Shown here: positions 3,788 to 14,096 of the stretch, in pieces
Position numbering within the stretch: position 1 is the first letter of the stretch
Layout of the letters: each line of letters opens with the position of its first letter
DNA from: Alicyclobacillus sp. SO9
GTDB taxonomy: Bacteria; Bacillota; Bacilli; Alicyclobacillales; Alicyclobacillaceae
Assembly (NCBI RefSeq): GCF_016406125.1
Contig: NZ_CP066339.1
Coordinates: 2,108,001 to 2,172,000, forward strand
Length of the DNA: 64,000 bases
Reading direction: 5' to 3'
Notes under the pieces: generated by a model
Database searches by the model: none
Told to the model about the DNA's origin: nothing
Seen by the model: only the letters and a program-made list of their open reading frames with translations
Program-made: the position numbers and the translations under genes

Positions 3788-4015
3788 ATGAATTATCAAG
3801 CTCTGTTGGATATCAAGAACAGTGGGCAGTTCACCGAAGCGAACTTTTATCGAGTGTCTCGTGTTGCACATGTCTTCCACAACCTTGCGGAGTACATAAT
3901 TGCTGACTTCAATGGCTTTGATGAAGACTCTTTTTGGAATGCAGTGGCTGGTTTGGAACAGCAGTTCGGAATGCATCACTACAGGAAAATCTTTGATGAG
4001 GTAGTCTCGCATTGA
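3788..4015 (+). CDS. hypothetical small protein, 75 aa
   Basis: The frame is open from 3707, but the part with protein character begins at ATG 3788 (MNYQALLDIKNSG). The product looks helical and amphipathic, with repeated aromatic residues and DSFWNAVAGLEQQFG in the second half. No family is recognised. A weak GGAAG lies 15 bases upstream, so the start is uncertain. It sits in the run of small unknown plus-strand genes. Confidence 0.4.
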   Translation: MNYQALLDIKNSGQFTEANFYRVSRVAHVFHNLAEYIIADFNGFDEDSFWNAVAGLEQQFGMHHYRKIFDEVVSH

Positions 4016-4139
4016 GTCTACGTTCTGTCGCATAAGGGGGCATAACCTGAACAAGCCCGCCCAACAATTTTTTGAATGAATATTCAGTTGCGTCGGTGGC
4101 ACAGAAATGTCGCTATTGGGCAGTTATGCGACACAGTAG

Positions 4140-4463
4140 TTGTCGACGCTAGGAGGGGAATTTCTGAGCCGAAGAACTAGACGCAAGAAGCACAAAGAAT
4201 ATCTAATGTCAATGGTGTATGCAATAAGCCTGAGTCCAACGTGGAGAAAAACACTGTTGGATAGTCCGTTGGGTGTAGAGCATAAAATCCTTCCCGAGAC
4301 TTTAGACACCAAGCATCTGCTATATTCCGCTGTTGAACGATATAACCTTGAGTACAAGGTTTGGAAAGACAACGAATCCCATGGATTTGTGGAATTTGTA
4401 GTACAGTCAAACGAGTTTCCCGAAGTACAGGGTTCTAGTTGGAACAATCCAAACGTCATGTAA
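4140..4463 (+). CDS. hypothetical small basic protein, about 107 aa
   Basis: The frame opens at TTG 4140. A strong AGGAGGGG at 4151-4158 lies inside it and points to initiation at the in-frame CTG 4164 (rare) or ATG 4206. The N-terminal part is very basic (RRTRRKKHK) and the rest mixed, ending in an EFPEVQGSSW region. No recognised family, signal peptide or membrane segment. The well-formed ribosome binding site without an obvious ATG partner is the odd point. Confidence 0.4.
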   Translation: MSTLGGEFLSRRTRRKKHKEYLMSMVYAISLSPTWRKTLLDSPLGVEHKILPETLDTKHLLYSAVERYNLEYKVWKDNESHGFVEFVVQSNEFPEVQGSSWNNPNVM

Positions 4464-4588
4464 GTAGGAACAGAGTGCGGTGCGGTTGTGTCGCTCACGG
4501 GGCAATACCGACATAAGCATTGGCTTCCCTATTGCACTATCCGGCAGATTAGTTTATTAAAGGCGAATTAGGAAAGAAGGGCATCCGG

Positions 4589-5146
4589 GTGTGGATGGGC
4601 ATCCCAAATTACGAACCACGATTTATGCGAAGTACCGCAGAGGTCATCTCACAATGCGGAAGAACATTACGGCAACTGCATGGTAAGACCTTAGAAGGTA
4701 TTTATGTGCTGTGGAACATCACATTGGATGAATGGTACAAAGACGCCCCCGTTATTGTCCAAGTAGAAGATTCACAAGTTGAGCTTTGTTCAAATATGAA
4801 CGACCTGTTCTCAATCACCTTCAATCAAATCGACAGATCGCTTGATATAGAGCCCATGGACTTGGCGGACATTGGGGTGTGGCATTTTGAATGGAGAAGT
4901 ATTTCTGAGCAAGACATCGTTGGTCGTAGGATTAACGAAATTGAAGTGATTGAATATGAATTTCGAACTACAAATCCCAGCAGCAAAAAATCACTTAATG
5001 GATTAGGACGAGAGGCATACAGTTGGCTGCACGGTCTTGGATTCAACTTAGATCGTGGATACGTTGGAGTTTTTAATGCACTTGACGAAAATGACATCAC
5101 CTTCCACCGAACAACTACCGAGGAATTTCATTACATCGGCATTTAG
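4589..5146 (+). CDS. hypothetical protein, 185 aa
   Basis: GTG 4589 follows GGAAAGAAGG at 4571-4580 with 8-base spacing, which fixes the start. The protein is soluble, with alternating beta-type segments (LEGIYVLWNITLD, DAPVIVQVED) and a C-terminal part containing WLHGLGFNLDRGYVGVFNALDENDI. I do not recognise a family. It precedes the nucleotidyltransferase gene by about 90 bases on the same strand and might be co-transcribed. Confidence 0.55.
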   Translation: MWMGIPNYEPRFMRSTAEVISQCGRTLRQLHGKTLEGIYVLWNITLDEWYKDAPVIVQVEDSQVELCSNMNDLFSITFNQIDRSLDIEPMDLADIGVWHFEWRSISEQDIVGRRINEIEVIEYEFRTTNPSSKKSLNGLGREAYSWLHGLGFNLDRGYVGVFNALDENDITFHRTTTEEFHYIGI

Positions 5147-5238
5147 GTGGAATATTATAAAAATTAATGGTTGCATGGTCGCCATGGAGTTAAAGGGCTA
5201 TAAAGTGACAAAAGGAGTTAGAGTCGGGAGCTGTTTAA

Positions 5239-5997
5239 ATGTTTGGTCCGATGCCAACATCACGGCAAGAAAAGCTAGATATGATCGACGAGATCGTGAA
5301 TCGATTATTGGCTCGCTATGCGTCTGCAATAGTTGCTATTGGAGTCTATGGTTCAATTGCCCTGGAGTCGGACGGACCGTTCTCAGATATTGAAATGTAC
5401 GTCATTGTCCAAGATGGTGCGGAAGTCCAAGGGCATGAATTTGTCTATGAACCATTCAAGATTGAAGTGGCTGTATTTCAGAGAACGCCATTCCTTAACC
5501 GAGCCAGGGCAGTTGACGATTTGTGGGCACTTACTGCTGATTCATATATCAATATCAAAGCCGTTTTTGACCCAGATGATTTCTTTTTGGCAGTCAAAAG
5601 TCTCCCACTAGATATCTCCGATGTGACCGTTGAGAAAATTATGAGGGAATTTGTGATTTGGGAGCCATATGAGACTATCGCCAAATTGCGCAATAACTAT
5701 AATGCGGGTAACCTCAACTACATTTCGCTCGGGGCAAAGGACCTTTCGTGGCGAACAGCGAAACTAATTGGACTTGCTAACAAGCAATATTACAGCACAA
5801 GAGCCAAAACCTTTGAAGAATCCTTACTGGCAAGGTCCAAACCTGACGGATACGCAGAATTGGTTCAACACATCATGAACGGTTCATTGAGTGACCGTGA
5901 CCACACTTACAAACTGTGTGAACAACTATGGAACGGCTTAAACGATTGGCTGAAAGAACTCGGAATCGAGTACGTGGAAACAGAGTTACCCTTTTGA
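5239..5997 (+). CDS. ANT(4')/kanamycin-nucleotidyltransferase-like protein
   Basis: The 252-residue protein aligns along its length with ANT(4')-Ia (KNTase, aadD), which adenylylates aminoglycosides. Shared features seen here are AIGVYGS followed by DGPFSDIEMYV near residues 32-55 (the nucleotidyltransferase GS...D-x-E metal site), a downstream FKIEVAVF acidic strand, YETIAKLRN near residue 145 where KNTase has its catalytic glutamate, and C-terminal HIMNGSLSD and LWNGLNDWL matching the helical domain. The start ATG 5239 has GGGAG at 5226-5230. Identity looks moderate, so resistance is not proven; it may act on another hydroxylated substrate. It lies in the accessory region, which suits horizontal acquisition. 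Confidence 0.8.
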   Translation: MFGPMPTSRQEKLDMIDEIVNRLLARYASAIVAIGVYGSIALESDGPFSDIEMYVIVQDGAEVQGHEFVYEPFKIEVAVFQRTPFLNRARAVDDLWALTADSYINIKAVFDPDDFFLAVKSLPLDISDVTVEKIMREFVIWEPYETIAKLRNNYNAGNLNYISLGAKDLSWRTAKLIGLANKQYYSTRAKTFEESLLARSKPDGYAELVQHIMNGSLSDRDHTYKLCEQLWNGLNDWLKELGIEYVETELPF

Positions 5998-6114
5998 CGC
6001 TCCCGAAGACAGACTTAGTGAATAAATATGCTTTTAGGGAGTCAAGTGCTTCCTGAACACTTGGGCAGGATAGTGCAACAAGGTCTGACCAAATTATGGG
6101 TGGTGAACTGTGTG

Positions 6115-6558
6115 ATGAAGGTCATTTTTCTTGATATTGATGGAGTGCTAGTTACCAGTCGCCACTTCGTCCAAAGCCAAAAGTATTTTGGTCACGAGTT
6201 TGACCCTGTTTGTGTCGAGAATCTAAAACTGATTTTAAGTCAGACGAATGCAAAGATTGTAGTGTCTTCGTCGTGGAGAGAAGGACGCACGCTGAAAAAT
6301 CTTGAAGCTATCTTCGATGCGAATGGACTTGAAAATTGTCTTGTCGGACAGACTCCATTGCTGGAGTTTGGTACGAGGGAAGATGAAATCCAAACCTACA
6401 TCGATGAGATGCGTGGCACGGAATTTGAAGTACAACAATTCGTCATAATTGACGATGAAGAGGAAATGAACAGGTTGGTGAGCCATCTTGTTCGTACGGA
6501 CTTTCAGACGGGATTAACCTCTGAAACAGTTCTGTCTGCGGTCGAACATTTGGGATAA
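6115..6558 (+). CDS. HAD-fold phosphatase-like protein (HAD_SAK type)
   Basis: The HAD superfamily is clear: motif I FLDIDGVLV lies three residues after ATG 6115, motif II is VVSSSWREG near residue 50, and the closing acidic motif is FVIIDDEEE near residue 115, followed by RTDFQTGLT. This pattern matches the HAD domain described in Swiss Army Knife RNA-repair proteins, here as a stand-alone domain of 147 residues. An upstream TTG-type extension to 6028 is possible, but motif I normally sits at the extreme N-terminus. Likely a Mg-dependent phosphohydrolase; the substrate is unknown. GGTGGTGA just upstream is a weak ribosome binding site. Confidence 0.75.
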   Translation: MKVIFLDIDGVLVTSRHFVQSQKYFGHEFDPVCVENLKLILSQTNAKIVVSSSWREGRTLKNLEAIFDANGLENCLVGQTPLLEFGTREDEIQTYIDEMRGTEFEVQQFVIIDDEEEMNRLVSHLVRTDFQTGLTSETVLSAVEHLG

Positions 6559-6861
6559 GCCTATTCGTATAAACATACATCTTGCTCAACGACGCCTTCC
6601 GTCGCACACGGGCAGCAATGTTGAATAGTGAGCCTACTGAAAAGCCTGTCATGGACGCTGCCGCGGCGAGGCAATATGAAACGCCCACCAAACTTGAGCT
6701 TGATGGGCTGGACAAACTTGAGATTAAAGGGATCCCTTACGCTAACGGCTTACATACAACACGTTGGAAGACGTTAAGATGAAATTGCTCGGTGCTCTAG
6801 ACTACCCGCCTACAGGTGAGATCAATTTACTGTTCCTGCTTTTTGATCGTTGGTGAACCAT
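6559..6861 (+). other. 303-base stretch without a supported gene
   Basis: A 66-codon frame (6582-6782) and a 25-codon frame (6779-6856) exist, but neither has a ribosome binding site or recognised similarity. Nothing else is evident between the HAD gene and the convergent AHSA1 gene. Confidence 0.4.
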
Positions 6862-7338
6862 TCACATCAATTTTAGTACTTCGTCCAACATGGCATAGGT
6901 TTGCTGCATGCCTTCTTCCATGCCGCCTGATATCATTCCGTCCCTATCGTCGACACTCAGGCAGGTCCCGGTTGATACTAGTTTCGTCATTCCGTTGCCC
7001 ACTTCGATGAGTTCTATCTTCTGAAGGGACACATGTCCACGTTCAGCAAGACCGTCAAATTCGAAAGTTTGAACCGTCATCTCTGGGGAAACCATGTGGA
7101 AGCTCCCGTGGAAGATAAATTCGGCTCCATTCGGGCTGGTTTGCACAAATCGCCATGAACCACCGTCGCGTACGTCGAGATGCTCTACGCGCGTGGTATA
7201 TCCTGGTCCAATCCACCAGCGTTCTAACTTGTCCTTTTGCGTCATCGCAGCAAAGACTTTGTCTCGGGGGGCATCAAATGTGCGTTCAATTACCATTGTT
7301 GGTTGTCCGGGCTCAGCTGTCACTTTAGCTCTATTCAT
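6862..7338 (-). CDS. AHSA1/SRPBCC-domain protein
   Basis: The 158-residue product starts at ATG 7338 (MNRAKVTAEPGQP) and shows the AHSA1-type SRPBCC signature: VIERTFDAPRDKVFAAMTQ near residue 20, then LERWWIGPG, DVRDGGSWRFV and FHGSF, ending with a long helix GGMEEGMQQTYAMLDEVL. Such proteins have a hydrophobic ligand cavity and are very often paired with an ArsR-type repressor, as here. The gene overlaps the end of the ArsR gene by 8 bases, so the pair is translationally coupled. The ligand is unknown. Confidence 0.88.
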   Translation of the reverse strand: MNRAKVTAEPGQPTMVIERTFDAPRDKVFAAMTQKDKLERWWIGPGYTTRVEHLDVRDGGSWRFVQTSPNGAEFIFHGSFHMVSPEMTVQTFEFDGLAERGHVSLQKIELIEVGNGMTKLVSTGTCLSVDDRDGMISGGMEEGMQQTYAMLDEVLKLM

Positions 7339-7666
7339 TCTGATCGTCCTCCTGTAATAATGCGTCCAAGGTATCAAAGCGATAATTCCATAGTGCTTCA
7401 AATTGGTCCAGGTACTCACTCGCATCTCTCAAGGCATCGGGTGCGATACTGACAATTTGCTCCCTTCCATTTCGTCGTTTGACGATTAACTTAGCCTTCT
7501 CCAGTACACTCAAGTGTTTGGCAACGGCAGCGAACGACATTTCATAGTTCTCGGCAAGTTGACTGATGGTGCGCTGGGCATGGACCAGTTTCTGTAATAT
7601 GTCTCTTCGAATTGGATCTGCCAGCGAGCCAAACAAGCCATCTAGATACGGATTATATTCAACCAT
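7331..7666 (-). CDS. ArsR family transcriptional regulator
   Basis: A 111-residue winged-helix repressor: FGSLADPIRRDILQKL near residues 10-25, recognition helix MSFAAVAKHLSVLEKAKLI, wing VKRRNGREQIVSI. The cysteine pair of metal-sensing ArsR proteins is absent. This is the subgroup found with AHSA1-domain partners. The start is set at ATG 7666 because a good promoter (-35 TTGACA, -10 TACATT) overlaps the longer TTG-initiated frame and would make ATG 7666 nearly leaderless. It probably controls its own two-gene operon. Confidence 0.9.
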   Translation of the reverse strand: MVEYNPYLDGLFGSLADPIRRDILQKLVHAQRTISQLAENYEMSFAAVAKHLSVLEKAKLIVKRRNGREQIVSIAPDALRDASEYLDQFEALWNYRFDTLDALLQEDDQNE

Positions 7667-7673
7667 ATGGTTT

Positions 7674-7702
7674 AATGTAAGCCGTTTCGTATAGAATGTC
7701 AA
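7674..7702 (-). promoter_or_regulatory. SigA-type promoter of the arsR-AHSA1 operon, leaderless
   Basis: On the minus strand TTGACA lies at 7702-7697 and TACATT at 7679-7674 with a 17-base spacer. Transcription would begin near 7667, at or next to the ATG at 7666, so the mRNA should have almost no 5' leader. No ribosome binding site is seen before this ATG, which agrees. Confidence 0.55.
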
Positions 7703-8217
7703 GCACGCAGGTCACAACCCAATCGAACCTATTTTGGACATGCGTTCCAGGATATTGAACAAACGGGGGCTTTAGTTCAGCAAGAGATCTCTGTTAAAAA
7801 TGCATAAATATTAATTTTCGAAAATATCTATCCGATGCACATTCTGTGTTATGGTTTAACTTAAGATAACCGAATGCTTATGGTCTGTTGTTGCGACCGG
7901 ACTGCAGGCGTTGCTCGTGGAAAGGGAATATTCTCCTCGGTGATATGAACGTCAATGTCCAATGCGAACTCCTTAACGGACAACTTGTAGCGTCAACGCC
8001 ATCTATGAGTTTTAATGGGGCAAATGCGGTCATTAGTCGGCATCATTACCGGGATCCGTATTCCAGGAACCAAGGCTTTCGGACCTGATACTCGTCAACC
8101 TATGGACAAAATGGCTCGGTAGTAACACTTGAGGTCAAGAAAGACCGCCCGTGTGGAGAGCTGAATTCGGAGGTCACCCATATGTCGTTCAAACAGTTTT
8201 ATAACGGTATAAAGTTT
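7703..8217 (+). other. 515-base stretch without a supported gene
   Basis: Short frames only. A GGAGGT followed by ATG 8182 would start a 71-codon frame, but most of it is antisense to the nuclease remnant and it resembles nothing. The segment at about 7800-7870 is very AT-rich. Likely eroded DNA at the edge of the defence remnant. Confidence 0.35.
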
Positions 8218-8748
8218 TCAGAAGTTACGGTAGAACACTTTAATGAGCTGTTGACTAAAAATATGAGGGTTCTTTACCAACATGAGTTCAAAATCGCCGT
8301 TGCATTTCATGTCAAACGGTGTTTTGCTACAATTCTCGCTTTGGAAGTCTTCCCACCACTTCTTTTCCTTAGGATCAAGGTCCCTGGATATGCATAATAC
8401 CCATTTGCTGATTGTTTTATTGTGTTGACTGGCACTGTCAAATGCCTTGCCAAATGATTCCTTAATTTGTGACGATCTACTTTCCTAATCGATTGTGCCA
8501 CTTACAAAAAATTCACACTGATATACGACCCACTTATCACCGCTCTCAAATATAAGGTCTAATCCCCCATCGCCTTGTCGTGTGGAAATATGGTATACCT
8601 TCTTTGCCACATTCAAGTGAGTGTCGTACCCAAGACCGGAAACGCGCAGTTCTCCAAGTGTGCTTGCTGAACTTCTGATAGACTTCAGTCAGCATGTTCC
8701 TGTAGCAACAGTAGTGCACACATGTTTTCAAAGTGATGCCTTGTACTC
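8218..8748 (-). pseudogene. degraded restriction-type nuclease gene
   Basis: From 8688 down to a TGA at 8218-8220 one minus-strand frame reads like a restriction-endonuclease-fold protein: RQGDGGLDLIFESGD, then VVYQCEFF, then IKESFGKAFDSAS, then WVLCISRDLDPKEKKWWEDF. That order is typical of PD-(D/E)xK nuclease domains in defence proteins. An in-frame TAG interrupts it at 8485-8487, after SGTID. Where functional relatives have QCK the sequence has QCE, so the catalytic lysine is also lost. Upstream the similarity jumps to another frame (HFENMCALLLLQEHAD, about 8742-8695), which shows a frameshift near 8690. No start with a ribosome binding site remains. The family is read from motifs, so the exact subfamily is unsure. 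Confidence 0.6.
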
Positions 8749-9135
8749 TTCACGCCATAAAGCCCCGCAAGCAAATAGCTTATTTGCACGAGAATACCCC
8801 CTACGATAATTGCAGATACATTGCGGCTGTCGCCTTTTTTTCAATCTTATCAATAGAGCTACCAATGCGTATATTCGTCGTCAACATCCATATTATACCA
8901 CGCGCGTCTTTCTACATGATGCGCGTTTGACTCGAGTAATGGTTCCGCAACGAGCATTGTCTTCATGAAGATCGTTTCATCAAACTCACGTCCACACTTG
9001 TATGAGCCGTGTACGCGTTTAGCGTCGGTACCTTCAAAGAGAAGATGCACTGTAAATATTTATGCCATTGAGTTATACTTTTCAGCAATGGGAATCATTC
9101 GGGTATCATGACTCTGAAGTTAGGGAGTAAGTTCA
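8749..9135 (+). other. 387-base stretch without a supported gene
   Basis: A 63-codon minus-strand frame (8859-9050, containing YKCGREFDETIFMKTMLV) may be a further remnant of decayed accessory DNA. It has no ribosome binding site or recognised family. The leader of the next gene contributes GGGAG at 9122-9126. Confidence 0.35.
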
Positions 9136-10419
9136 ATGGACAAGCCTCAGAAGACTGTACAGGAAAAAACATCTGCCGATACTAAAGCCATTGGGTTCGA
9201 CTATCAATATTATTATTTCCTTTACCAGATGTTGCACTTGAGACATGGGGAGTCTGTGGGGTATGAAGTGAAAGATGACGTTCACATTTCGAGAACTAAT
9301 GGTAAGACTGTGTTGATTCAGATGAAGCATTCAGTTGTAACTAAGGCAGATGGGAATGTCGAAAATCTGACCGAGAAGGATGAAGACCTGTGGAAAACAA
9401 TTTCAAACTGGATAGCAATGATTAACGATGACGCGGATGAGAGGACGACAATCAACCTACAAATTGACTTCATTAACCACCATCTTTTTCAACTAGTAAC
9501 CAATCAATCTCAGTCTGATTCGAACAGATTTATTTTCAAAATGTCCGAACTCAATGATGGAAAGTTAAGTGTAGAAGCTTTCAAGGACTATCTTAGCTCC
9601 CTTGTGAAACAATCATCAGAGAGACAACTATCAACGGTAGATTCGTATATCTTGAAATTGCGTGAACAGAACGCTGTTTGGTTGACAGCGTTTCTGAAAA
9701 GATTGTCCATCTACCATAACGTGGACGATTTAATTTTCAAAATAAAACAAAAAATAAGAGAGAAGAATGTTCCCGAAACTAGAATTGAAGATGTATATGC
9801 AGCCGTCAACAGTCGGCTTCGAACTTTAATTTATGAAGATATTAAAGCGGGTAACAAAGTACACTTTTCGTTTGAGAACTACTATAGGGAGTTTACTAGA
9901 TATTTCGAACTGGGGAGAACGAGAAGACTACCAATTCGACTAAACACCACAGCGCCAGAAGTACCTCAAAACGCTCAAGAGCATATGTTCATTACGCAAC
10001 TAATAGATGCCGAGATTTTAAGTGTTCGAGACGATGACTTTGAAGAAAAGTTGGTTGAGTGCTTCTCCAATAAATATGAAATGCATAATAACTTGACCCG
10101 GTGGCTACACGATAGCGAAATTACGGAACATGAAAAAATGGCATTTGACTGGGAAAGTGAAAAAGAATGGAAAAATACCTTTGACAGAGTATATGCGGAG
10201 CATAAGACAAAACTCAGAAACCAGAACGCTCTGGACACTAGTGAAATGGAGGAGCCACGAGGGTTAGCAGCCGTCTGTTACTATGAAACCTTGAAGATAA
10301 AGCTGACCCTAGATGCAACGCAGTTACCCGTTACAATGTGTAACGGACAGTATTACCTCTTATCAGATAAGCCCTCAATTGGCTGGCTCTATAATTGGAA
10401 AGCAAGGTATCTGGTATGA
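9136..10419 (+). CDS. ABC-three-component system effector (nuclease-like N-terminus, ABC-3C C-terminal domain)
   Basis: The 427-residue protein fits the ABC-3C defence family: residues 15-60 show AIGFDYQYYYFLYQML, then ESVGYEVKDDVHI, then VLIQMKHSV, i.e. the E...D...QxK arrangement of a Cap4-like PD-(D/E)xK nuclease. Then come NLTEKDEDLWKTISNWI near residue 75, a long helical middle region and a C-terminal module ending CNGQYYLLSDKPSIGWLYNW. In known systems this protein works with a RecN/SMC-like ABC ATPase and a small middle component that sense infection. Neither is intact nearby, so this copy is probably an orphan. ATG 9136 has GGGAG at spacing 9. The family call is from remembered motifs. 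Confidence 0.7.
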   Translation: MDKPQKTVQEKTSADTKAIGFDYQYYYFLYQMLHLRHGESVGYEVKDDVHISRTNGKTVLIQMKHSVVTKADGNVENLTEKDEDLWKTISNWIAMINDDADERTTINLQIDFINHHLFQLVTNQSQSDSNRFIFKMSELNDGKLSVEAFKDYLSSLVKQSSERQLSTVDSYILKLREQNAVWLTAFLKRLSIYHNVDDLIFKIKQKIREKNVPETRIEDVYAAVNSRLRTLIYEDIKAGNKVHFSFENYYREFTRYFELGRTRRLPIRLNTTAPEVPQNAQEHMFITQLIDAEILSVRDDDFEEKLVECFSNKYEMHNNLTRWLHDSEITEHEKMAFDWESEKEWKNTFDRVYAEHKTKLRNQNALDTSEMEEPRGLAAVCYYETLKIKLTLDATQLPVTMCNGQYYLLSDKPSIGWLYNWKARYLV

Positions 10420-10538
10420 ATGACTTAAACTATAGTGAAGACGGGCTTTCGAATGGTCAGTTTGATACAGATTTCTTTAACAACGAAGCGAACACACAAA
10501 ACGATGGTATCGAAGATGAGGACCGTGTACGTACATAA
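10416..10538 (+). pseudogene. truncated ORF coupled to the ABC-3C gene, 40 aa
   Basis: ATG 10416 overlaps the TGA of the ABC-3C gene (ATGA), the usual coupling within ABC-3C operons. The frame encodes only 40 very acidic residues (starting MNDLNYSEDGLSNGQF) before TAA at 10536-10538. It looks like the N-terminus of the next system component, cut off where unrelated methyltransferase-tail sequence begins. Which component it was cannot be told from so short a peptide. Confidence 0.45.
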
Positions 10539-10785
10539 GCTTGAAAACTGCCTAAATAGGGCGATGGTAAATTATCGGTGCACGCTTGCAGACACCAACA
10601 CTTCCAGAAAGCAGGTAAGCCTGGCAAAAAAGGAATTGAAGAGCTTGGATTTGCAAATGGCCGAGTTAAAAACCTATGACACATTGCTGTGCAGCGCCGC
10701 AAAGCGTCAGATTGAAATTAATTTGGATGATGGGGTAGACACGAACTATGGAAAATTTGCGAGATTGCTTGCAAAATTAAGATAA
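10435..10785 (+). pseudogene. C-terminal remnant of a PglX-like DNA adenine methyltransferase
   Basis: The recognisable part runs from about 10528 to the stop at 10785. It contains a coiled-coil LAKKELKSLDLQMAELKTYD and then RQIEINLDDGVDTNYGKFA, which corresponds to the end of BREX PglX and related type II methyltransferases, where a helical pair precedes an LDDGVKVNYGKF motif. Catalytic motifs (NPPY, SAM site) are absent from the whole window, so only the tail survives. Codons before about 10528 belong to the overlapping frame of the truncated ORF and show no similarity. The junction marks a deletion or recombination within a defence island. Confidence 0.6.
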
Positions 10786-10823
10786 TATTGGTTTGTTGAA
10801 TGTACTGTTAAGAGATTTTCTTC

Positions 10824-10854
10824 CAGCCACTCACAGGGGACCGGTGAGTGGCTG
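10824..10854. terminator. bidirectional hairpin between convergent genes
   Basis: Perfect 11-bp stem CAGCCACTCAC / GTGAGTGGCTG with a 9-base loop. It lies between the methyltransferase remnant (+) and the GarR-like gene (-). No long T-tract, so termination strength is uncertain. Confidence 0.55.
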
Positions 10855-10871
10855 GGTTAGCGCAGAGTTGC

Positions 10872-11768
10872 TTACTGTTTTCCACCTTTCGGTGTTTGGT
10901 GATTCGCCATTCTTTCAAAGAAATCTATAATGTAAGAATGATCCTTCTTAGCAAATCCGCTGGCGATTTCGGCACTGAAAATCTCTTTGACAAGGTGTGT
11001 GACAGGGAGAGGGACCCCCAGACTGTTGGCTGTTTCCTGGACGTTGTTGAGGTCCTTGAAGTTGATTTCGATACGTCCGCCTGGTTCGAAATCCCTATTA
11101 ATAATTTTTGGCATTTTCGCTTCGAGAACAGCGCTGCCGGCTAGTCCTCCGCGAATTGCGGCAAATACTTTGTTCAAATCAATACCGGCTTTGGACGCAA
11201 ACACAGCCGCTTCGGAAACAGCCGCCAAATTTATACTTACGACGATTTGATTTGCCAGTTTAGCGACTTGTCCCGCGCCTGTCTCGCCAACATGAACAAT
11301 ACTGTCGCCCATTGAGTGAAACAGAGGTAATACGCGCTGAAATGGTTCTTCATCACCGCCAACCATGATAGAGAGTTTCCCGCTAATTGCCATTGGTTCT
11401 CCACCGCTGACAGGCGCATCGAGAAAGAATATGTCGTTTGCTTTTAGTCTTTCTGCGAATGATTTTGCATCAGAGACGGAAACAGAACTCATGTCTACAA
11501 CAATAGTGCCTGGATTGGCTTTGGCTGAAATTCCATTCTCTCCAAACAACACTTCGGCAACGTGTGCGGCGGCGGGAAGCATGGTGAAAATAATATCACA
11601 CGCTTTGGCAAGTTCCTCTATGGACTCACTGGCCTGTCCGCCAAGCGTCGCTAAATCATTTACTGCAGCTCGATTTATATCGAACAGATATGTTTCAAAT
11701 CCATCTTCAATTAAATGACGAGCCATAGGTTTTCCCATGATGCCGAGACCAATAAATCCTATTTTCAT
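10872..11768 (-). CDS. GarR/GlxR-like beta-hydroxyacid dehydrogenase
   Basis: A 298-residue NAD(P)-dependent dehydrogenase of the 3-hydroxyisobutyrate/tartronate-semialdehyde reductase family. Rossmann motif GFIGLGIMGKPMARHL is at residues 4-19, substrate motif DAPVSGGEPMA near 118, catalytic lysine in GAGQVAKLANQ near 167. The stretch AIRGGLAGSAVL, FEPGGRIEINFKDLNN resembles E. coli GarR/GlxR more than MmsB. It would interconvert tartronate semialdehyde and glycerate or a similar pair. The gene lies next to a DeoR regulator and a keto-sugar kinase operon, so it may share that regulon; upstream half-sites TTTCATT and AATGAAA (11805-11827) resemble the operator at 13141. Confidence 0.85.
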   Translation of the reverse strand: MKIGFIGLGIMGKPMARHLIEDGFETYLFDINRAAVNDLATLGGQASESIEELAKACDIIFTMLPAAAHVAEVLFGENGISAKANPGTIVVDMSSVSVSDAKSFAERLKANDIFFLDAPVSGGEPMAISGKLSIMVGGDEEPFQRVLPLFHSMGDSIVHVGETGAGQVAKLANQIVVSINLAAVSEAAVFASKAGIDLNKVFAAIRGGLAGSAVLEAKMPKIINRDFEPGGRIEINFKDLNNVQETANSLGVPLPVTHLVKEIFSAEIASGFAKKDHSYIIDFFERMANHQTPKGGKQ

Positions 11769-12195
11769 GCCTTAACTACCTCCATATGGCTATTTGTTCT
11801 TCGTTTTCATTCTATACCTAAATGAAAGAAAATGCAGATTGGATTTTGAAAATGAAAACAAACGACATATATGTCAGGGTTGCAGCGACATATAAGATAA
11901 AACATATCTGTTCCGTTTGTAGTTCTCCAGTTCCGTCATAACATCATGGCTGGATTTGTATCTGTGGAATGGCGGCTATTCAGCATAATTGCATCAACGC
12001 GGCCAATAAGTATGGATACAAGAGGGGAGTATGTTCAGTTTGAGGCCAAGCGGACGCTTGGATTCTCTCAAAAAGAGTCCGACCTATGAAGTTGAGCGGC
12101 CGGAGTCAGTGAAAGCCGTACATATCATCTTGTAGGAATCTCTACTAGCTTCGACTTTCATCGAGATCGACCGCGAAATGATTACAGGTCTGCTG
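11769..12195 (-). other. 427-base intergenic region with possible regulator half-sites
   Basis: Contains TTTCATT (11805-11811) and AATGAAA (11821-11827), the same half-sites as the palindrome at 13141-13167 but with a 9-base rather than 13-base gap. A perfect 7-bp inverted repeat CCAAGCG/CGCTTGG lies at 12048-12063. No gene is supported. Confidence 0.35.
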
Positions 12196-12963
12196 CTACT
12201 CAGCAACTATAACATTTACACTGCTCATTGTTGGATGGTACAGATACTCGTCTGCGATATTCTTGTCGGTAATAATGCTCTCAATCTCGTTGGTATTCGC
12301 AAAGACAGCACTTGAATTACTTCCTATCTTAGTGTGGTCAAGCAGTGCAATGGTCCTCTTTGCCTTTTTCACCAGTTCGCGTTTCAATTGCACTTCGTAC
12401 AGGTTGAAGTCTGACAACCCTTTCTCTGGGGTGAATCCGTTGGCAGACGTGAACATGATGTCGACATTGACTTGATCGAGAATGCTCAACCCTAAGGTTC
12501 CTTCAATGGATGAGGACCCTTTTGTCATCATTCCTCCAATCAAAATCACCGTAATATCAGGGTGTTCATTAAGCTCCAGACCAACATGGGCGCTGCTCGT
12601 TACGACTGTCAATCGCATTGATTCTTCCTTTAGGCAGTGAGCAAGTTCTAAGGCAGTTGAACTGGCATCAAGTAAAATGCATTGTTTTTCTTCGATAAAA
12701 TGCAACGCTGCTTGAGCAATAAGTAATTTTTCCTTATGATTTCGTTTGATGCGGGCTGTGAAGCTCGTATCGTTGCCTCCAGCATCATTTAGAATGGCGC
12801 CTCCATGGGTCCTGGTTAGGAGGCCTTCCTTTTCCATATTGTTGAGATCCGTTCGCAGGGTTGCTTCTGATACCACAAGTTGCTCCGCCAGTTCGGAAAC
12901 CGTCAACCGCTTTCGTTCTTTAAGTAAATTTAGAATTTGATTTCTTCTCTCTTCGACAAACAT
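12196..12963 (-). CDS. DeoR/GlpR family transcriptional regulator
   Basis: A 255-residue DeoR-type regulator starting at ATG 12963 (MFVEERRNQILNLL). The N-terminal helix-turn-helix is typical (LTVSELAEQLVVSEATLRTDLNNME, quoted in part: VSEATLRTDLNNMEKEG), followed by TRTHGGAI. The C-terminal sensor domain has ILLDASSTALELA and the phosphosugar-binding-type TSSAHVGLEL, IGGMMTKGSSS. Such proteins usually sense a phosphorylated sugar of the pathway they control. It sits between the GarR-like gene and the isomerase/DhaK/DhaL operon and is the probable ligand of the palindrome at 13141-13167. Confidence 0.88.
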   Translation of the reverse strand: MFVEERRNQILNLLKERKRLTVSELAEQLVVSEATLRTDLNNMEKEGLLTRTHGGAILNDAGGNDTSFTARIKRNHKEKLLIAQAALHFIEEKQCILLDASSTALELAHCLKEESMRLTVVTSSAHVGLELNEHPDITVILIGGMMTKGSSSIEGTLGLSILDQVNVDIMFTSANGFTPEKGLSDFNLYEVQLKRELVKKAKRTIALLDHTKIGSNSSAVFANTNEIESIITDKNIADEYLYHPTMSSVNVIVAE

Positions 12964-13140
12964 CTTCACCGTATCTCCAATCCTTTCGAATCTAAGTCTA
13001 AGTGATTTGTTTGCCAATAGCAATCATGAGCAATGTCTTGCCGCGCCGTGCATAGCACACACCGACAGACTTCTTGTCAGGGTGCAATGAACACGCTTTG
13101 GGTACAAACTGATTTTAAATACGTGTTGCAATGTTGTCGA

Positions 13141-13167
13141 TTTCATTTGAAACACGTTCAAATGAAA
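13141..13167. promoter_or_regulatory. perfect 27-bp palindrome, candidate DeoR operator
   Basis: Arms TTTCATTTGAA (13141-13151) and TTCAAATGAAA (13157-13167) are exact inverted copies around the spacer ACACG. A TTGACA hexamer begins at 13174, so a bound repressor would cover or abut the promoter of the downstream sugar operon. It also lies upstream of the DeoR gene itself, permitting autoregulation. The rest of 12964-13271 holds no gene. Confidence 0.65.
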
Positions 13168-13271
13168 GTATGATTGACAAAACACAAGTATATGATTAGT
13201 GTTGAAATGATTTATCATATTGACGGCGTTTTAGTGTAAACGGAAACAGGAATTATTTGGGGGCGATGCTA

Positions 13272-14096
13272 ATGAGCATAAAATTCGGGTGTCAAGGTTC
13301 AACCTGGATGCTTGATTATGACGTTGAAGCCGACATGATGGATAAAATGATGAATGACGTTCAAAATGGTGGATTTCAAGGGCTTGATGTGCAGGTGAGT
13401 CTCTTAGGAAGATACCACGATGAGCCTGAGCGTTTAAGGTATGAATTAGAGACTAGGGACTTGCAGCTAGCTGCCTTGACGTTACCGACGGCCTTTGAGG
13501 GGGGGCATGAGTCAGAGACGGAACGAAAGAGAACGGACTACTACATTGATTATTTAAAGCATTTTCCGGGCGCCATTTTGAATGTGCCATCACGAGTGGG
13601 GCCAAGCCGGGATGACCTGTCGCGAAGACAAAGCGAAATTATTAATGGTGCAAACGAATTGGGAAAGCGTGCCTATGACAAAGGAATTATTGCCTCAATT
13701 CATCCCATTTCTTATAAAACCTCTTATTGGAGGACGGCTGACGACTATAAAATACTGCTTGAAGGTCTAGATTCGAGATATATGGGGTACACACCGGATG
13801 TCGGCCACATCACTTTTGGAGATATGGACGCGGCTGAGATATTTAAGGAATACTTTCAGTTGATACGACATGTTCATTTTAAAGACGCTTCAATCAGTCA
13901 TGAGTGGAGAAAGATGGGCGAAGGCGATATCGACTTTGAAGGATGCGTCGAGGTCTTGGTAAATCGAGGGTACGGCGGTTGGATTATGGTGGAAGAGGAA
14001 ACGCCTGAGGCACAGTTGAAGACGACCGAAACAATCGCTGAGCTCGGAAAATATGTAGAGCAGAATCTCGTTCCTATTGTGCGAGGAAATGCCTGA
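13272..14096 (+). CDS. TIM-barrel sugar isomerase/epimerase
   Basis: A 274-residue AP-endonuclease-2/xylose-isomerase-fold protein related to IolE, IolI and Hyi. Seen are the N-terminal FGCQGSTWML strand, the metal-site strand GYTPDVGHITFGD near residue 175, IRHVHFKDA near 203 and the closing GEGDIDFEGCVEVL plus GGWIMVEEE. The D...H...H...E ligands of the divalent-metal site are therefore present. ATG 13272 is preferred because GGGGG (13259-13263) has good spacing to it; ATG 13266 is the alternative. It heads an operon with DhaK and DhaL, so it likely interconverts an aldose and the ketose that the kinase phosphorylates, or epimerises the product. Confidence 0.82.
   Translation: MSIKFGCQGSTWMLDYDVEADMMDKMMNDVQNGGFQGLDVQVSLLGRYHDEPERLRYELETRDLQLAALTLPTAFEGGHESETERKRTDYYIDYLKHFPGAILNVPSRVGPSRDDLSRRQSEIINGANELGKRAYDKGIIASIHPISYKTSYWRTADDYKILLEGLDSRYMGYTPDVGHITFGDMDAAEIFKEYFQLIRHVHFKDASISHEWRKMGEGDIDFEGCVEVLVNRGYGGWIMVEEETPEAQLKTTETIAELGKYVEQNLVPIVRGNA

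Follow-up and report, generated by a model that had tools for sequence, protein, structure and literature searches.

A probable pseudogene remnant of an LmuA/Avs2-type nuclease effector in an eroded defence region of Alicyclobacillus sp. SO9

In the 64,000-nucleotide stretch of Alicyclobacillus sp. SO9 DNA analysed here (the window), the minus strand at 8688-8218, possibly from 8768, very probably holds the pseudogene remnant of an anti-phage effector with an N-terminal restriction endonuclease of the kind present in LmuA and Avs2. The effector would once have carried this nuclease at its N-terminus, and the nuclease domain, which we take to be PD-(D/E)xK / Mrr-like, would be all that is left. 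Damage sits at several places rather than at one stop codon: together, a nonsense codon, a glutamate at the position of the catalytic lysine, and a start that is out of frame or lost would most likely leave no active product. We infer LmuA as the remnant's ancestor, in preference to other proteins that carry this domain. Its parts are listed in the direction of reading.

8700-8768, minus strand: possible N-terminal strip of the nuclease domain (YGVKSTRHHFENMC...), in another frame; tentative (N-terminal profile columns 20-41, E 0.005)
8488-8688, minus strand: left half of the nuclease domain, GDGGLDLIF ... VYQCEFF (23.4 bits, E 3.7e-6, profile columns 34-79)
8512-8514, minus strand: GAA codon, giving Glu where QxK has its catalytic lysine; Lys in the seven relatives examined
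8485-8487, minus strand: in-frame TAG; the loop it falls in varies in length and joins the QxK strand to the QI(K/R)xSF stretch
8221-8484, minus strand: right half of the nuclease domain, QIKESF ... KWVLCI ... KEKKWWEDF (45.1 bits, E 8.3e-13, profile columns 81-135; PADLOC LmuA E 4.2e-9 alone)
8218-8220, minus strand: TGA closing the frame, with no recognised LmuA C-terminal region after it

The reading frame is as the initial annotation described it. It is preceded by a stop codon at 8689-8691 and is open from 8688 to 8221 except for the single TAG. Before the TAG it contains no ATG, one TTG and one GTG, and no ORF of at least 50 amino acids is listed in it. The remnant, with a TAG inside and no ATG before it, thus lacks the continuous frame with a start codon that is expected of an LmuA of the restriction-endonuclease type. 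In the four aligned relatives, the loop that holds the TAG here is shorter by two residues.

The nuclease assignment is supported by a profile of four related nucleases, the window sequence excluded, that was run over the 1563 stop-to-stop frames of at least 25 amino acids in the window. The right piece ranked first and the left piece second; the third-ranked frame scored 7.0 bits, and among 7660 frames (at least 15 amino acids) from 300 dinucleotide-shuffled copies of 8218-8748 the maximum was 8.9 bits. Because the two pieces match adjoining parts of the profile, the TAG falls between them. The nuclease motifs that had been noted before (GDGGLDLIF, VYQCEFF) and after (KEKKWWEDF) the stop are therefore borne out, and the profile similarity on which the initial annotation had made its case depend was found on both sides of the TAG. 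The relatives in the profile came from a search with the full read-through query, so that this test is not fully independent. An independent PADLOC model of LmuA (PDLC03851) matched the whole piece at E 6.6e-12, as well as the right half alone; the left half alone gave no PADLOC match. The remnant thus has the N-terminal restriction-endonuclease domain similar to that of LmuA, and the earlier description of a defence-type nuclease holds. The comparison with nuclease profiles that had been proposed gave LmuA and Avs2 as the nearest families; Pfam (E up to 1) was silent on the remnant piece, and the Cap4-type signal belonged to the neighbouring gene at 9136-10419. NCBIfam likewise gave no match on the piece, nor did the Avs2 models of PADLOC at E up to 1, LmuA being the only family matched. 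A protein search of the 5.29-Mb genome returned the remnant site and no second copy, and PDLC03851 matched the genome at this site only.

Several lesions accompany the stop codon. The catalytic lysine of QxK is replaced by glutamate in the remnant (QCE), as had been noticed, and is a lysine in seven of the seven relatives examined (L006, L007, L008, L009, L012, L013 and L014, of which L006 and L009 closely resemble one another). The start of the nuclease domain was not found in the 8688-8218 frame. The initial annotation had placed the 5' part in another frame, and this was weakly supported: the strip at 8768-8700 fits the N-terminal profile of the four relatives when the 15 minus-strand frames of 8400-9136 are searched, while with the main four-relative profile it scored 4.6 bits, E 2.1 over the whole window, and PADLOC was silent on its frame. 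The strip, which was chosen after the fact, may tentatively be taken as the N-terminal part of the domain. If it belongs, 92 nt separate it from the next matching residue (8607), as against two profile columns, which amounts to a frame change plus a misfit of ~80 nt.

The far end of the protein also appears to be affected. The PADLOC LmuA match covers the model only up to position 143 of 343, and none of the remaining five frames of 7690-9140 matched a PADLOC family, so the C-terminal half of an LmuA-type protein appears to have been lost or to be unrecognisable in the remnant. For Lamassu, LmuB is described as SMC-like and the likely sensor and LmuA as the effector, LmuB is thought to unleash the LmuA nuclease upon phage or plasmid entry, and the C-terminal part of LmuA is a possible docking domain (PMC10586767). 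An operon with LmuB, mostly also with LmuC, is expected of LmuA; PADLOC found no trace of LmuB or LmuC in 7690-9140, and the LmuB model PDLC03862, one of several such models, had no match in the genome. PDLC03862 is the LmuB model with the best fit to L009, L012 and L014, and in a control it matched in 9 of 14 genomes. A repeat search of 7600-11000 revealed nothing like an insertion boundary, and Rfam had no match in 4000-14000.

Since the search for a catalytic lysine, for a C-terminal part, for an uninterrupted frame and for an LmuB close by came out negative in each case, the remnant most likely makes no active product, and it is presumably not expressed. The inactivation proposed earlier from the changed lysine and the in-frame stop is accordingly upheld as very likely. 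Its description as recent and confined to a single codon is not, because there are several lesions: the domain's start is not in the frame, no ATG precedes the TAG, the protein lacks its C-terminal half, and partner genes were not detected. Equally, the good conservation that the core frame retains does not allow the remnant to be called very old; similarity of the read-through frame over ~100 residues with one stop makes it more intact than a very old pseudogene, and this counts against the pseudogene reading. For the comparison with close strains that had been proposed, no other genome of the genus was among those searched, and none of the 58 other genomes of the order had a match.

Besides the remnant's own genome (1 of 41 in the family, 1 of 59 in the order), there was no copy in the 40 other family genomes or in the 58 other order genomes, neither set including a member of the genus. 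The phylum search of 398 genomes gave matches in three, own included. A first scan of genome contigs yielded no relatives, and a second, made with an alignment, yielded two (L012, the same as L005; and L013, the same as L004 and L017). The plasmid collection gave 14 matched records, all below 60% identity, four of which were fetched; the phage collection gave no match to the remnant. Across the class, PDLC03851 had a match in 15 of the 398 genomes searched, the remnant's own among them. This is a broad model, and several of its hits resemble, by eye, trypsin-like protease or alpha/beta-hydrolase effectors. When the nuclease profile was applied to the class-wide loci besides the remnant's own (E 0.01, frames of at least 80 amino acids), only L014 and L017 (= L013) matched, and the other loci were excluded from the lysine count.

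Three of these relatives lie in Lamassu operons. The one from Desulfosporosinus acididurans (L012) is the LmuA of an operon in which the next genes match LmuC and LmuB; that from a plasmid of Streptomyces liliifuscus (L009) is likewise an LmuA with LmuC and LmuB; and L014, from a genome of the same class, is an LmuA operon with frames matching LmuC and LmuB. The fourth, from Bacillus sp. ISL-37 (L013), is a 271-aa protein with ~100 residues beyond the domain, and none of the four neighbouring ORFs scanned there matched in PADLOC. Two of the operons have peculiarities of their own. In L014 (1-2484, minus strand), an LmuA with the same nuclease is split by one TGA between nuclease and C-terminal part, and is followed by an LmuC frame without its first ~45 model positions and then by an LmuB frame. 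In the D. acididurans operon, LmuB (7337-9237, plus strand) is in two overlapping frames, 7337-7663 and 7621-9237, that jointly cover one LmuB model; this Lamassu system looks broken too, or misassembled.

The remnant shares with LmuA of the restriction-endonuclease kind (PADLOC PDLC03851) the motif series GDGGxD ... QxK(F/Y)F ... QI(K/R)xSF ... W(V/I)LCI ... KWW, in the same order as in the closest relatives. Unlike LmuA, the remnant has glutamate for the catalytic lysine, a TAG, a start that is not in frame and no C-terminal part, and LmuC and LmuB were not seen with it. Avs2 is the other system to be considered, as Avs2 models match L009, L012, L013 and L014 over the nuclease domain, which is the start of Avs2. 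The domain is thus common to both systems, and the remnant may stem from either. Descent from a different protein that begins with this nuclease, for instance an Avs2-type STAND NTPase, is a possibility of some weight, though an unlikely one: the part that would decide, the C-terminus, is lost, and PDLC03851 is broad enough to match likely protease and hydrolase effectors as well. On the other hand, the window piece itself matches LmuA and no Avs2 model, and the STAND NTPase domain that follows the nuclease in Avs2 was not detected, LmuA being the sole PADLOC family in the six frames of 7690-9140. Rather less probable is a short nuclease-domain protein that had no Lamassu partners and decayed in place, of the kind that the Bacillus sp. 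ISL-37 gene, with its PADLOC-silent neighbours, seems to encode. The closing of the window frame at 8218, just past the domain, is consistent with such a protein, but the ISL-37 protein keeps ~100 residues after its domain, and L009, L012 and L014 are in Lamassu operons.

Other explanations would have the gene be something other than a pseudogene. The initial annotation had raised readthrough of the TAG to give a full product, and readthrough or recoding to a full-length regulated protein would fit a single stop placed in a variable loop between two well-conserved halves. We consider it very improbable. TAG is an ordinary stop here, ending 11 of 36 window ORFs (hand-picked from the ORF list, and not annotated genes). 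With 150 of the 258 first-look candidates scored, the Rfam tRNA model matched the genome at 76 places, and ARAGORN, applied to 22 stretches covering these matches, found 76 tRNA genes, none with an anticodon for TAG (CUA), TAA or TGA; no amber-reading tRNA is thus among them. The stop is not conserved in relatives, since the aligned ones are open at the TAG position and the stop in L014 lies elsewhere. The read-through product would have no upstream ATG, no partner gene was seen for it (PADLOC in 7690-9140; PDLC03862 genome-wide), and because its catalytic lysine is changed and its C-terminal part missing, it would be without evident use. An error of sequencing or assembly in an intact gene, affecting the TAG and possibly more, is likewise very improbable, if marginally less so. 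The sequence does rest on one assembly; yet several independent errors would be needed to account for the stop, the K-to-E change, the loss of the start and the absence of both C-terminal half and partners, and the assembly consists of 2 contigs and is listed as 100% complete. It is scarcely conceivable that the amber codon and QxE are kept on purpose, such that a dead nuclease-domain peptide (either half, or the product of rare readthrough) acts as a decoy or inhibitor of the divergent LmuA-type effector next to it. A pseudogene remnant of an LmuA/Avs2-type effector remains by far the preferred reading.

The surroundings of the remnant are those of a defence region in decay, with two further features on one side.

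9136-10419, plus strand: divergent, open gene for a 427-aa LmuA-type protein with a Cap4-like nuclease domain and ABC-3C CTD7 (PDLC03848 E 2.4e-36, positions 4-365 of 373)
10435-10785, plus strand: fragment with the C-terminal ~96 residues only of a BREX PglX methyltransferase (PDLC02521 E 7.8e-21, positions 1075-1170 of 1174; NF033452 E 4.8e-18)

Like the remnant, the Cap4-type protein matches an LmuA model, but it belongs to another family, is on the opposite strand and has an open frame; the best similarity between the two, E 0.012 over 17 residues, is not meaningful. In Pfam it matched CTD7 at E 1.8e-5 and Cap4_nuclease at E 4.9e-4, both below the Pfam cut-offs. Its PDLC03848-type match is the only one in the 41 family genomes. 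Scanning of neighbouring frames revealed no LmuB-like gene, and PDLC03862 matched none genome-wide; the protein may perhaps be an orphan effector. The PglX fragment starts right after this gene, and the genome has no further PglX match. The locus is a genuine but unremarkable case of an eroded defence region, in which a Lamassu/Avs-type nuclease and a BREX methyltransferase are reduced to fragments next to an open LmuA-type gene seemingly without a partner. Defence genes are well known to turn over, and the remnant adds an example of it, not a principle.

On its other side the remnant is flanked by genes for an ArsR-type regulator and an AHSA1-domain protein. The gene at 5239-5997 (plus strand), some 2.2 kb away from the remnant, has a product that carries the C-terminal domain of kanamycin nucleotidyltransferases (KNTase_C, E 2.3e-25). 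Between the PglX fragment and a convergent dehydrogenase gene there is a 15-nt inverted repeat at 10823-10855, 93% complementary and with 3 nt between its arms, which by its position is perhaps a terminator.
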